The notes under the pieces: generated by a model
Told to the model about the DNA's origin: nothing
The model's input: the letters and a program-made list of their open reading frames with translations, nothing else
Databases searched by the model: none
Program-made: the position numbers and the translations under genes
Shown: positions 15,249-23,725 of the stretch, in pieces
How positions within the stretch are numbered: position 1 is the stretch's first letter
How the letters are laid out: each line of letters opens with the position of its first letter
Source of the DNA: a virus
Strand: one strand, 5' to 3'
Length of the DNA: 24,788 bases
Virus record (IMG/VR): IMGVR_UViG_3300028388_001115
Location: 1-24,788 of that record

Positions 15249-16109
15249 ATGTCAACAAATCCATATTTCAATACAATAAATTATCAACCTGAACAAGATT
15301 TACAAGAATCTTTAATTATAGAATCCATTAAAATATATGGTCAAGATTTTATTTATGTTAAAAGAGATAGTGTTGCAGAAGATGTAATATATAGTGAAGA
15401 TCCCCTAAGTAAATTTGTGGATACCTATGACATCGAGATGTATATATCTACAGTGGATGATTTCGAGGGTGAGGGTGATCTTTTTTCAAAATTTGGAGTA
15501 GAAATTAGAGATAGAGCAACTTTAGTGGTCGCTCAAAGCCGATTTATTTCAGCATGTGATCGTGAATTAATCAGACCAAGAGAAGGAGATATAATCTATT
15601 TTCCTCTAACAAAAGGAATTTTTGAGATACATCATGTTGAGGATGAATCAATATTTTATCAACTCGGAAGATTACATGTATTTACATTGACGATAGAGCA
15701 GTTTGAATATTCAAATGAATTATTCCAGACTGGATATACTGACATTGATGAAATAGCAAATAATTCACAATATTCATATGAATTAATTCTTAACACAGGT
15801 TCAGGAATTTTCTTGAAAGATGAATCTATTTATGTAGGTTCTTCTTTAAGTACATCTAGTGTGACAGCTAAAGTCCATTCATTAGATAGTGTAAATAAAA
15901 AATTGCGTATTATGAATATTAAGGGGCAATTTCTTCCAGGACAAACAATAACTGGTGATACGAGCGGGGCTTCATGGACTATCGGTAGCGGTGATGATCA
16001 ACAACTAATACAAGATACACTTGCAGATAATTTAGAATTAGAAGAGAGTGCTGATAATGATATATTTGATTTTAGTGAAGTAGATCCTTATAGTGAAGGA
16101 GATTATTAA
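15249..16109 (+). CDS. gp14: Neck protein gp14 (head completion)
   Basis: The N-terminus (NPYFNTINYQPEQDLQESLIIESIKIYG) and the middle (LFSKFGVEIRDRATLVVAQSRF, then REGDIIYFPL, KGIFEIHHVE) match gp14 neck proteins. These act with gp13 to seal the DNA-filled capsid. The length is 286 aa against T4's 256. The excess is largely a C-terminal beta insert, including FLPGQTITGDTSGASWTI (residues about 228-245), the same module type as in gp13 and gp8. AAGGA at 15237-15241 supports the start, and the final stop overlaps the next start by one base (TAATG). The acidic C-terminus (SEVDPYSEGDY) is typical of this family in marine phages, as far as I recall. Confidence 0.92.
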   Translation: MSTNPYFNTINYQPEQDLQESLIIESIKIYGQDFIYVKRDSVAEDVIYSEDPLSKFVDTYDIEMYISTVDDFEGEGDLFSKFGVEIRDRATLVVAQSRFISACDRELIRPREGDIIYFPLTKGIFEIHHVEDESIFYQLGRLHVFTLTIEQFEYSNELFQTGYTDIDEIANNSQYSYELILNTGSGIFLKDESIYVGSSLSTSSVTAKVHSLDSVNKKLRIMNIKGQFLPGQTITGDTSGASWTIGSGDDQQLIQDTLADNLELEESADNDIFDFSEVDPYSEGDY

Positions 16110-16933
16110 TGTTTAATTCCACATTTTATCATTCTACATTAGCCAATATTACAATCGCTTTTGGTTCATTATTTAATGATATTAATGTAATGCGTTTTGA
16201 TTCATCTGGAAATGAAGAGTCGAGAATAAAAGTACCAATACATTATGGGCCGAAAGAAAAATATTTAGCTAGATTAGCACAAGATCCGGATTTGAGAAAA
16301 CAGACTGCTATTACTTTGCCTAGAATAACATTTCAGAGGACTGGAATAGAATATGATTCATCGAGAAAATTAAATAATGTTCATAAAAATAGAGTTAGAC
16401 ATGATAACCTTTTCTCAAAAACACAATTCATACCAACACCATATAATATAAATTATACATTAAGTGTAATGACAAAAAATGCTAGAGATGGCGATCAGAT
16501 AATTGAGCAGATATTACCATACTTCAATCCGTCGTTTGATGTTAGTATTAAAACTGTAAATGAATTAGATTATAGTGATGACATGCCTGTTATTCTCAAT
16601 AGTATTTCAGAAGAAGACACATACGAGGGTGATTTTATCGAGCGTCGTGCTATCATATGGACATTAGAATTTACGATAAAAGCAAACCTATACGGGCCAG
16701 TATCACAGACAGGTATTATTAGAAAGGTACAAGTTGATATCGGTGTCACGTCAGAATCACCTATAGATGATGATGTCGTTGATTCAACTCCACGTGTTGT
16801 TAGAATCACCGTTCAACCAGATCCTATAGATGCTAATCCCTCTGATTCTTATGATTATTTTGAAACACTAGAAATATTTAATGATGGTAAGAAGTTTGAT
16901 CCTGTTTCTGGTGATGATGTTGATATAGAATAA
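16109..16933 (+). CDS. gp15: Tail completion/sheath stabiliser protein gp15
   Basis: gp15 caps the finished tail and connects it to the neck. The N-terminal signature (FNSTFYHSTLANITIAFGSLFNDI, then IKVPIHYGPKEKYLARL) is characteristic of gp15. The central region (LPRITFQRTGIEYDSSRKLN, PTPYNINYTLSVMTKN, QIIEQILPYFNP) agrees over its whole length. At 274 aa it is nearly identical in size to T4 gp15 (272). The start overlaps gp14's stop (TAATG), giving translational coupling in the order gp13-gp14-gp15 as in T4. The gap after it holds a late promoter inside an inverted repeat, marking the end of the neck unit. Confidence 0.94.
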   Translation: MFNSTFYHSTLANITIAFGSLFNDINVMRFDSSGNEESRIKVPIHYGPKEKYLARLAQDPDLRKQTAITLPRITFQRTGIEYDSSRKLNNVHKNRVRHDNLFSKTQFIPTPYNINYTLSVMTKNARDGDQIIEQILPYFNPSFDVSIKTVNELDYSDDMPVILNSISEEDTYEGDFIERRAIIWTLEFTIKANLYGPVSQTGIIRKVQVDIGVTSESPIDDDVVDSTPRVVRITVQPDPIDANPSDSYDYFETLEIFNDGKKFDPVSGDDVDIE

Positions 16934-16961
16934 TATTGTGTATAAATATATAACAATATTA
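16931..16961. repeat. Perfect 9-bp inverted repeat enclosing the gp16 late promoter
   Basis: TAATATTGT (16931-16939) and ACAATATTA (16953-16961) are exact reverse complements separated by 13 bases that contain TATAAATA. The left arm overlaps the gp15 stop codon (16931-16933). The right arm ends on the first base of the gp16 ribosome site AGGAG (16961-16965). Read-through RNA from gp15 could fold this hairpin against the ribosome site, whereas RNA started at the late promoter would lack the left arm. It could also serve as a weak terminator. Confidence 0.6.
16941..16948 (+). promoter_or_regulatory. T4-type late promoter TATAAATA upstream of terminase gp16
   Basis: This is an exact octamer, 24 bases before the gp16 ATG and inside the spacer of the inverted repeat at 16931-16961. 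With T4 spacing, transcription would start near 16954, so the 5' leader would begin within the right arm and carry AGGAG (16961-16965). It likely drives gp16 and gp17. Confidence 0.75.
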
Positions 16962-16972
16962 GGAGAATTATA

Positions 16973-17458
16973 ATGAGTGATGACGAAAAAATATTAAAGA
17001 AAGATGAAATAGAAGAGCTTAACAGTACTGATGTTGTTCCGTACAAACAGGAGAACAATACCGAAGTAATTGAAAAAAATAATCAAGAGGTTATTGATCA
17101 AGAATTTAATAAGCGTTCTGTGGATTTAAGAAATGATTATGAGTATGCCCGAACAAATATATATGATACTATATCACAAGGCAGTGATGCTCTATTCGAA
17201 CTAACAAACCTTGCGAAAAATTCACAGAGTCCTAGAGCATACGAAGTGCTTGCGAAATTGATGGATACTATCACAAACAGTAATGAAAAACTTGTTAATA
17301 TACACCAACAAGTAAAAGATATTGAGAAGGTGGAGAAGGGTTCGCAAAATTCACAATCCGCTGGGACTATAAACAATATAGTTTTTCATGGAACTACAGA
17401 AGAGTTATTTGATGCGATTGAAGATAAAAGGAAAGACAAAAATAATGGCGGTTCATGA
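16973..17458 (+). CDS. gp16: Terminase small subunit gp16
   Basis: gp16 binds concatemeric phage DNA and stimulates the gp17 packaging motor. The product is 161 aa against T4's 164. It has an acidic, disordered N-terminus, a central helical region (RNDYEYARTNIYDTISQGSDALFELTNLAKNSQSPRAYEVLAKLMDTITNSNEKL at about 50-105) that in the T4 family forms the oligomerising coiled coil, and a conserved C-terminus (NNIVFHGTTEELFDAI) near residues 135-150. AGGAG at 16961-16965 supports the ATG at 16973. It overlaps the chosen gp17 start by 14 bases, the usual coupled arrangement for the two terminase genes. Confidence 0.92.
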   Translation: MSDDEKILKKDEIEELNSTDVVPYKQENNTEVIEKNNQEVIDQEFNKRSVDLRNDYEYARTNIYDTISQGSDALFELTNLAKNSQSPRAYEVLAKLMDTITNSNEKLVNIHQQVKDIEKVEKGSQNSQSAGTINNIVFHGTTEELFDAIEDKRKDKNNGGS

Positions 17459-19136
17459 TCATCCTTCACAAAAATATGATAACTACTTATCTAATCCTAA
17501 ACTAAAGGCAGCCAATGTTAAGGTAGCATTTACACAAGAACAAGTAGATGAGTATATGAGATGTAAACACGATATATTATATTTCATGGAGAATTATATT
17601 AAAATCGTAACATTAGATGATGGACTTGTTCAGTTTCAACCATATGAGTTTCAACAAAAAATAGTTAGACTAGTACACAACAATAGATTTTTCATTGGTA
17701 AAATTGGCCGTCAGATGGGCAAGACGACGATTGTTGGGGCATATCTGCTATGGGTTGTATTGTTTCATAAATTACAAAGTGTTGCTATACTTGCTAACAA
17801 GGGCAAAACAGCAATGGGTATTTTAGGTAAGATACAAAAATCATATGAGAATTTACCATTATGGCTACAACAAGGTATCAAAGAATGGAATAAGGGTTCT
17901 CTTATATTAGAGAATGGTTCTAAAATTGTCGCTGATTCAACTGGTGGTTCTGCTGGTCGTTCTGAATCTCATAATATAGTGTTCTTAGATGAGTTTGCTT
18001 TCGTACCAAGAAATGTAGCTGAAGAATTTATGACATCGGTATATCCTGTAATTACTGCAGGAACAAACACTAAGATAATAATGATATCAACTCCAAAGGG
18101 TATGAACTTATTCTATAAGTATTGGGTAGATGCCAAAAATAAGAGAAACAAATATAAACCTTTTGAGGCTCATTGGTCAGAAGTTCCTGGGAGAGACAAA
18201 GCATGGGAGAAAGAGACAAGAGCGAATATAGGTGATGAAAAGTTTGAACAAGAATTTAATACGGAGTTTCTTGGTAGTACTAATACACTAATTTCCGCTT
18301 CAAAACTAAATGAACTAGTTTATGTTGAGCCAGTCAAAACTTATAAAACACAGGGTGATAATATAGTCAAAATATATGATACTCCTAAACCGAATCGAGC
18401 ATATATTATTTCTGTGGATTCGGGTGAGGGTACTGGTCTTGATTATTCTGCTTTCACGGTTATAGATGTTACTGATACACCATATAATATAGTTAGTACG
18501 TTCAAAAGCTCTGATGTATCACCATTAATTTTTCCGGATATTATAGTCAATATAGCCAAGATATATAATAACTCACATCTACTAATCGAATCTAATGGAA
18601 TTGGTACACAGGTGATCAATACCATATATAATGATCTCGAATATGAATATGTTTTTGCAACATCATCGAGAGGTAGAGGTGGACAAACAATTTCCGCAGG
18701 ATTCAATAAAAGTTCCAAGCTAGGAATAAAAATGAGTGGTGCTGTCAAAAAGATTGGGTGTTCAAACTTAAAGAGTATGATTGAAACAGATGGTATAATG
18801 ATCAATGACTATAATATCATTGAAGAGTTTAGTACTTTTGTCGCAAACAAGAAAAATACTTATGAAGCAGAGAGTGGCCATCATGATGATCTAGTTATGA
18901 CAATGGTACTATTTGGATGGCTCACCAAGCAACAATATTTTAAGGATATTACATCAATAGATATAAGAAAAAAATTATATGGTAATAGACTAAAGGATAT
19001 TGAAGAACAGATAATGCCACCTACCATACAATTTCAGCAACCTACTGAATTTAATGAATCTTTTTTAGATTCAGAGGGGGTTAGATGGGAGGTTGTAGAA
19101 GAATTTGATTACCATTCGGATGATTTTGATTGGTAA
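17445..19136 (+). CDS. gp17: Terminase large subunit gp17 (packaging ATPase and nuclease)
   Basis: I chose the ATG at 17445 (MAVHDHPSQKYDNYL), preceded by AAAGGAAAG at 17427-17434. An in-frame ATG at 17388 would create a 71-base overlap. The 563-aa product has an ATPase domain with Walker A GRQMGKTT at residues 88-95 (T4: SRQLGKTT) and Walker B IVFLDEFAF with D182-E183. A likely coupling motif (STPKG) follows. The C-terminal RNase H-like nuclease has acidic residues D325 (SVDSGEGTGLDYSA), E382 (IESNGIG) and D481-D482 (GHHDDLVMT). These correspond to the three catalytic acids of T4 gp17. All key residues are intact. It docks on the gp20 portal to translocate and cut DNA. Confidence 0.97.
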   Translation: MAVHDHPSQKYDNYLSNPKLKAANVKVAFTQEQVDEYMRCKHDILYFMENYIKIVTLDDGLVQFQPYEFQQKIVRLVHNNRFFIGKIGRQMGKTTIVGAYLLWVVLFHKLQSVAILANKGKTAMGILGKIQKSYENLPLWLQQGIKEWNKGSLILENGSKIVADSTGGSAGRSESHNIVFLDEFAFVPRNVAEEFMTSVYPVITAGTNTKIIMISTPKGMNLFYKYWVDAKNKRNKYKPFEAHWSEVPGRDKAWEKETRANIGDEKFEQEFNTEFLGSTNTLISASKLNELVYVEPVKTYKTQGDNIVKIYDTPKPNRAYIISVDSGEGTGLDYSAFTVIDVTDTPYNIVSTFKSSDVSPLIFPDIIVNIAKIYNNSHLLIESNGIGTQVINTIYNDLEYEYVFATSSRGRGGQTISAGFNKSSKLGIKMSGAVKKIGCSNLKSMIETDGIMINDYNIIEEFSTFVANKKNTYEAESGHHDDLVMTMVLFGWLTKQQYFKDITSIDIRKKLYGNRLKDIEEQIMPPTIQFQQPTEFNESFLDSEGVRWEVVEEFDYHSDDFDW

Positions 19137-19161
19137 TTTATAATTTTAATGAATTATAAAT
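19136..19161 (+). terminator. AT-only hairpin after gp17, overlapping the gp18 late promoter
   Basis: ATTTATAATT (19136-19145) pairs perfectly with AATTATAAAT (19152-19161) around a six-base loop, starting at the last base of the gp17 stop codon. The right arm contains most of the late promoter TATAAATA. No T-run follows, and the stem is all A-T pairs, so termination is uncertain. It may mark the unit boundary or protect the 3' end of the gp17 message. Confidence 0.3.
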
Positions 19162-21143: not shown

Positions 21144-21162
21144 GGGTGGAATATTTCCACCC
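21144..21162 (+). terminator. Rho-independent-type terminator after gp18
   Basis: GGGTGGAA (21144-21151) and TTCCACCC (21155-21162) form a perfect eight-base-pair stem with a three-base loop, ten bases after the gp18 stop. The downstream sequence is ATTTAAAATT, so the U-tract is short. It is one of the few G-C-rich elements in this AT-rich region, and it separates gp18 from the gp19 promoter. Confidence 0.75.
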
Positions 21163-21176
21163 ATTTAAAATTAGTA

Positions 21177-21184
21177 TATAAATA
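21177..21184 (+). promoter_or_regulatory. T4-type late promoter TATAAATA upstream of tail tube gp19
   Basis: This exact octamer lies between the gp18 terminator and gp19, 38 bases before the ATG at 21223. The GGGAGAA at about 21209 supplies the ribosome site. Having its own terminator-promoter junction lets gp19 be made at a different level from gp18. Confidence 0.75.
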
Positions 21185-21771: not shown

Positions 21772-21779
21772 TTTGACGA

Positions 21780-21810
21780 GGCATATATATTAATAGCGAA
21801 TGTATATGCC
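21780..21810 (+). terminator. Hairpin terminator between gp19 and gp20
   Basis: GGCATATATATT (21780-21791) pairs with AATGTATATGCC (21799-21810), 12 pairs including one G-T wobble, around a seven-base loop. TTT follows at 21811-21813. It begins nine bases after the gp19 stop. The U-run is short, so it may be a partial terminator. No exact late promoter is seen between it and gp20, which suggests that some read-through is needed. Confidence 0.6.
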
Positions 21811-21839
21811 TTTAACCTTAATATGTATGGACTATTATT

Positions 21840-23560: not shown

Positions 23561-23568
23561 TATAAATA
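23561..23568 (+). promoter_or_regulatory. T4-type late promoter TATAAATA very close to the gp67-like gene
   Basis: This exact octamer ends only 13 bases before the ATG at 23582. With T4 spacing (box at -13 to -6) the transcript would start near 23574, inside the GGAGGG ribosome site (23572-23577), giving a leader of about eight bases. It likely drives the gp67-like gene and gp21. Confidence 0.7.
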
Positions 23569-23581
23569 AATGGAGGGTAAA

Positions 23582-23725
23582 ATGTCATCCCCACTAAAGA
23601 AGATGTTAAAAGATATAAGAAAGGGTAAGCTAGCTGATAGCAAGAAAGAATTTAAGAAGATTTTGAGTGACAAAGCTAGGAAGTTAGTGGAAAAAGAGAA
23701 AGACAAAATTAGGACAATAGACTAA
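23582..23725 (+). CDS. gp67: gp67-like prohead core protein (47 aa)
   Basis: This short ORF reads MSSPLKKMLKDIRKGKL, then ADSKKEFKKILSDKARKLVE, ending KIRTID. GGAGGG at 23572-23577 serves the ATG, and the stop overlaps the gp21 start (TAATG at 23723-23727). The pattern of a short helix, then KxxLxxxKKxFxxIL, then a K/E-rich helix parallels the N-terminal half of T4 gp67 (LIEAIKSNDLVAARKLF). In T4, gp67 is an internal core protein cut by gp21. T4's acidic C-terminal half is absent here. Position between portal and protease supports the assignment, but the similarity is by eye and modest. Confidence 0.6.
   Translation: MSSPLKKMLKDIRKGKLADSKKEFKKILSDKARKLVEKEKDKIRTID

Follow-up and report, generated by a model that had tools for sequence, protein, structure and literature searches.

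The stretch of DNA analysed here (the window) is a whole virus record of IMG/VR, 24,788 bases long, and is taken to be a fragment of a phage genome. It contains a T4-like late cluster, with genes for a gp8-like protein (PF09215), gp13, gp14, gp15, gp16, gp17, the sheath, the tube, the portal, and the prohead protease. The features considered below lie on the plus strand. The gene for gp15, the tail sheath stabiliser (16109–16933; PF16724, phrog_227), ends with a TAA stop codon at 16931–16933, and the gene for gp16, the terminase small subunit (16973–17458; PF11053, phrog_735), starts with the ATG at 16973. The AT-rich gap of 39 bases between them contains a late promoter octamer of the T4 type, TATAAATA (16941–16948), recognised by its motif and its non-coding placement, and a Shine–Dalgarno (SD) sequence, AGGAG (16961–16965). 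The large terminase subunit, gp17, follows at 17388–19136. This listed start overlaps gp16, and most relatives align only from about residue 17–33; the in-frame ATG at 17445 is likely to be the true start.

The octamer is enclosed by a perfect 9-bp inverted repeat, with a left arm TAATATTGT (16931–16939) and a right arm ACAATATTA (16953–16961) that form nine perfect pairs, one of them G-C, around a loop of 13 nt. In the first-pass annotation of this DNA, the octamer was described as lying symmetrically between the arms and the right arm as touching the AGGAG of gp16. In fact the octamer is off-centre, with 1 nt on its left and 4 nt on its right; the contact with AGGAG exists, but consists of the first A (16961), the one SD base that belongs to the arm. 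The left arm opens with the three bases of the TAA stop codon of gp15, and the distance from stop to arm is thus zero.

The probable late promoter in front of gp16

The octamer occurs seven times in the 24,788-base window, versus 5.2 expected by chance. Six copies are on the plus strand (at 2459, 16941, 19155, 21177, 23561, and 24382), all six wholly in non-coding DNA, which was defined as the 1066 bases outside the ORFs taken as genes (4.3% of the window); the seventh copy is on the minus strand. Because all of the plus-strand copies fall within this 4.3%, they are very probably real promoters. The copy at 16941–16948, in intergenic DNA upstream of late genes, is accordingly graded as very probably a true T4-type late promoter. 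With T4 late-promoter spacing, transcription would start at about 16954, inside the right arm, and RNA from this promoter would therefore lack the left arm. The first-pass annotation had proposed that transcripts from the internal promoter lack this arm, and the geometry agrees, although it is from the sequence that we infer both the promoter activity and the start site.

The corresponding motif in cyanophages is NATAAATA, according to a published account (PMC2984593). With T4-type late promoters the window shares the exact octamer, an intergenic position, and the plus strand; it differs in the unusual place of the promoter, just downstream of gp15. This can be seen in a set of 101 distinct sequences downstream of gp15, made up of that of the window and 100 others in which gp15 is 34–52% identical. 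The octamer TATAAATA lies within 90 nt of the gp15 stop in two of the 101, the window and a locus designated L139. A gp16 match starts at most 300 nt after gp15 in 79 of the 101, and the rest have another gene there or no recognised gp16. Among the 84 sequences in which the next start could be placed, the gap after gp15 has a median of 1 nt and reaches at least 30 nt in three; in T4, the gp15–gp16 gap is 8 bases and has no promoter. Since the promoter is absent from nearly all of the relatives examined, it looks like a local gain, and may have arisen in the gp15–gp16 gap within this phage lineage. Such a promoter would give the terminase genes, and any genes beyond them, an additional late transcript. 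For the window itself this changes little: one more late promoter, in an unusual position.

The arms are without comparative support. It had been suggested that the arms of related phages be compared for compensatory changes, and that relatives with the promoter and without paired arms would refute the proposed lock. No sequence among the 100 others has the promoter together with arms downstream of gp15, which, given how distant these relatives are, is an absence of support and not a disproof. The named counter-example does exist: in L139, a single distant phage (gp15 39% identical), the promoter is present, the best enclosing stem has 4 pairs, and there are no arms. A close relative in which conservation of the arms could be followed was absent from the best 80 matches listed for gp15, gp16, gp17, or portal queries; for gp17, the best segments among these 80 were 46–54% identical; in genome G022, identity is 61% over the first half of gp17. 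Likewise, the repeat with three free positions matched no other IMG/VR contig, in a search that may skip records very near the window.

Chance, folding, and possible function of the repeat

Perfect 9-bp repeats with loops of 3–25 nt number five in the window and 0–6 (mean 3.5) in 10 dinucleotide shuffles; the count is not above chance. With the promoter and the composition of its flanks given, a 9-bp repeat enclosing this octamer arises in 25 of 5000 flank shuffles (0.5%), or roughly 3% once the six promoters are allowed for. The repeat scores 10 (pairs plus G-C pairs); when 50 left flanks from the gp13 promoters of other phages were set against the same right side, two reached this value. The perfect arms around a late promoter that were first noticed are thus real and their significance is near chance; the repeat is a mild oddity, found post hoc, and the evidence overall is weak. 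The best explanation, which we hold with moderate confidence, is that the palindrome is an ordinary by-product of an AT-rich 39-base gap in which both a TATAAATA box and a leader have to fit, and no regulatory role would need to be assigned to it. Another 9-bp repeat lies at 19136–19161 and shares bases of its right arm with the late promoter at 19155.

The alternative with a known precedent is a translational switch. In T4, genes e, soc, 49, and I-TevI have transcript-dependent inhibitory hairpins with a late promoter between the arms, as described in two reports (PMC3014915, PMC2988022); the first-pass annotation had cited e and soc correctly. As in these T4 genes, the window has TATAAATA between the arms, and the transcripts that start from it would lack the 5′ arm, given a start site placed by T4 spacing. 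In the T4 hairpins, as far as these accounts go, the SD and/or the AUG is inside the helix and the earlier (early or middle) transcripts are silenced, whereas in the window the SD lies beyond the end of a weak stem and the upstream genes are presumably late. In a weak switch of this type, the hairpin would form in mRNA that reads through from the neck genes and would make it harder for 30S subunits to load on gp16, while the promoter transcripts escape.

Folding predictions bear on this in both directions. Taken by itself, the 53-nt stretch folds into a hairpin of −6.9 kcal/mol (z −1.8), a value that 13 of 200 shuffles attain; within 111 nt of context, shuffles fold just as well (z −0.52). In favour of a switch, the prediction lengthens the stem to 13 pairs, interrupted by a single bulge; however, the local fold pairs only A16961 of AGGAG and leaves the SD and the start codon outside the helix. 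To open the SD of gp16, the read-through leader needs 1.95 kcal/mol and the promoter transcript 0.34, so that the two differ by 1.6; the same calculation for T4 e gives 14.2 and 4.3 kcal/mol (difference 9.9). For T4 soc the values are 1.76 and 1.47 kcal/mol, a difference of 0.3 in spite of its being a published hairpin case, and the SD-energy measure can therefore miss true cases. Opening the wider region from −20 to +13 at gp16 costs 8.0 versus 1.8 kcal/mol, which makes it 6.25 kcal/mol dearer in read-through RNA, and a modest effect on gp16 translation could therefore persist. Similarly, the right arm occupies −20 to −12 relative to the gp16 start, within the 30S contact region, so that some inhibition of gp16 would be conceivable. 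Among 160 pairs of late promoter and gene, the 75th and 90th percentiles of the difference are 1.3 and 4.2 kcal/mol for the SD (window 1.6) and 4.6 and 8.9 kcal/mol for −20 to +13 (window 6.25), in a survey that merged unrelated genes, included the pairs of the window and of T4, and dropped pairs without an SD-like site.

A stem beside a free SD has one published parallel in seg43 of Aeromonas phage 25, where a very stable hairpin lies directly upstream of an unsequestered SD; its effect is left unsettled in that report (PMC2988022), and its very high stability differs from the −6.9 kcal/mol of the window hairpin. If folded in read-through mRNA, the hairpin of the window would likewise form a weak stem beside the SD and not over it. 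The gp15 stop codon starts the left arm, so that ribosomes finishing gp15, judging by its position, would sit on this arm and should melt the stem. This is unlike the gp13 hairpins of relatives considered below, which are stronger versions of the arrangement and in which 6–25 nt separate the upstream stop from the left arm (for the 15 of 44 in which the stop could be placed). Taken with the lack of comparative support for the arms, these points make a weak switch at gp16 unlikely, and the lock as proposed, a read-through hairpin hiding the gp16 ribosome site, is poorly supported: the SD is not sequestered, the fold is weak, and the gp15 stop is inside the left arm. The delay of terminase relative to neck proteins, which was to follow from it, is not expected either, because the genes upstream appear to be late structural genes themselves, and both transcripts would then be late.

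It is highly improbable that the repeat serves as an operator with two-fold symmetry, bound by a protein across the late promoter and comparable to the one through which I-TevI represses its own T4 late promoter. The palindrome does span the promoter, and T4 does have a protein that occludes a late promoter (PMC2988022); the I-TevI operator resembles its homing site and is not described as a palindrome in the passages on it. Near copies of the arm (at most one mismatch) are somewhat commoner in the window than in shuffles (33 versus 23 expected, a number reached in 2 of 100 shuffles), but most of them lie in genes. The exact arm sequence is present at its two repeat positions only, the record contains the 31-base repeat a single time, and the search of IMG/VR found it nowhere else. 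A second copy, looked for in the record as a hint of an operator, was not there.

Finally, transcription of the neck genes might end at the repeat and begin anew, for terminase, from the promoter in the loop, a reading that is barely tenable here. In its favour, at gp13 of the cyanophage isolate S-RIM44 and of many uncultured relatives, the loop of a hairpin contains the late promoter motif, and a T run comes after the stem. Against it, the stem in the window has a single G-C pair and is followed by GGAGAATTATAATG, without a T run, and no terminator-like site was found at the gp15–gp16 junction. An intrinsic terminator, for which a G+C-rich stem and a T run were looked for, was rejected at the repeat. 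Elsewhere in the window, hairpins at 21144–21162 (GGGTGGAATATTTCCACCC, before the promoter at 21177) and 21779–21811 (AGGCATATA..TGTATATGCCT, before the portal gene) are candidate transcript ends, neither of them called terminator-like. After the promoter at 23561 lies a lysine-rich ORF of 47 codons (23582–23725), which may encode a prohead core protein; its stop codon and the beginning of the prohead protease gene overlap.

Promoter-in-loop hairpins at gp13 of relatives

A survey of late promoters in the collected loci led to gp13, the first neck gene. A late-promoter-like octamer is present in 90 of 171 distinct gp13 leaders, and 44 of these 90 have a stem that covers the SD. In three groups of uncultured T4-like phages, the gp13 late promoter lies in the loop of a strong, covarying hairpin of this kind. 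Such a stem was called when it had at least 7 pairs, when its right arm covered at least 3 SD bases, and when it was matched in at most 2% of left-flank shuffles; the proportion of 44 in 90 is no population estimate, the loci having been fetched with gp13 of hairpin-bearing groups as the query. Examples are L337:1440-1503, L258:1440-1503, L361, L364, L365, L237, and L240, among others. In the other octamer-bearing gp13 leaders, mostly no such stem was seen, and a few, such as L036 and L069, have AT stems around the gp13 promoter that leave the SD free, like that of the window.

The arms differ from group to group: CTCCAAGG/CCTTGGAG, CTCCTTGG/CCAAGGAG, CTCCTCTT/AAGAGGAG, and CTCCCC/GGGGAG, with further pairs CTCCTATGTTC/GAACATAGGAG (around the octamer TATACATA) and CTCCTGATGC/GCATCAGGAG. 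Across 21 distinct arm pairs, the inner five pairs, which are not fixed by the SD, are Watson–Crick in 88 of 105 cells, versus a mean of 46 and a maximum of 62 in 2000 re-pairings, a count inflated by the choice of the 44 leaders for having a stem. A fairer swap test, run in Python on 89 promoter-bearing leaders thinned to 50 dissimilar ones, gave a score of 8.34 with their own flanks and 5.90 with swapped flanks, the highest of 5000 permutations being 6.8. When two groups were taken whole (gp13 identity of at least 65%), 13 of 13 and 25 of 25 distinct leaders scored at least 10, in groups chosen because their first members showed the hairpin. An alignment of 18 gp13 leaders with MAFFT misplaced the arms and so gave no consensus fold.

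The pattern CTCCN{0,14}TATAAATAN{4,34}GGAG occurs exactly once in 18 of 24 whole records, which were selected and include some near-duplicates, and never in the other six; every match is the sequence of a gp13 leader, and a backwards control of the pattern had no match in the 24 records. Among 18 hand-chosen named phages, the CTCC..GGAG form, searched with ATAAATA, was absent from gp13 in all and present elsewhere in the genome in seven; control matches in two of the 18 indicate that this looser pattern is partly noise. S-RIM44 has the terminator-like hairpin AAGTCCCTGCCTG-ATAAATA-CAGGTAGGGACTTTTT just upstream of gp13 (W07 112783-112815), and ACG-2014j (L437, upstream of 1201) has, by eye, a similar terminator-like hairpin around CTAAATAG in the same place. 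At the gp13 junction, T4 and RB49 have, also by eye, an ordinary hairpin that lacks the octamer.

For the six gp13 leaders included in the energy survey, read-through RNA needs 10 to 15 kcal/mol more than promoter RNA to open the SD, much as in T4 e, and a transcript-dependent lock is plausible at gp13 of these relatives. A T run of at least 4 T follows the hairpin in 29 of the 44 leaders, and one of at least 5 T in 24; 15 of the 44 are without such a run. Because of these T runs, many gp13 hairpins may act as terminators of upstream transcription, either instead of hiding the SD or in addition to it. A literature search, mostly of journals open without subscription, found no report of a gp13 hairpin.

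Like the window, these uncultured phages have an inverted repeat that encloses a late promoter ahead of a late operon. In contrast, the gp13 hairpins have the SD in the right arm and 3–6 G-C pairs, they covary and are conserved within groups, and their upstream stop is at a distance from the left arm, whereas the window has none of these features and the gene concerned is gp16. The gp13 cases set a standard, with the SD within an arm, G-C pairs in the stem, and an upstream stop set apart from it, of which the window repeat falls short. In addition, TATAAATA is missing from the 74 bases ahead of the window's own gp13 gene (14265). The mechanism described for a few T4 genes (e, soc, 49, and homing endonucleases) appears, with covarying arms, before the neck operon of many uncultured phages, where such a hairpin would shield an essential late operon from transcripts reading in from upstream. 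One could suppose, more broadly, that several T4-like groups guard the neck–terminase operon by a hairpin with the promoter in its loop and the SD in its arm, and that the phage of the window, without one at gp13, has begun a weak version at gp16; we consider this combined proposal improbable.

Two other settings of late promoters were met in the same material. In G022:C1, around 26632 (L493 upstream of 1001), NATAAATA precedes a lysozyme gene (PF00959), a setting shared with T4 gene e. It is the only non-coding NATAAATA of this 168-kb genome with an enclosing stem that scores at least 11 (0.17 expected), and the stem ends just short of the SD. Upstream regions of the lysozyme relatives (28 loci) are, by eye, mostly unlike one another. 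The gp17 gene is interrupted after residue 290 in L076:2813-5468 and G022:C1:158757-161365; the insert in L076 includes a gene for a 193-aa HNH endonuclease (PF13392), whose own late promoter is enclosed by a CTTTCTTT/AAAGAAAG hairpin.
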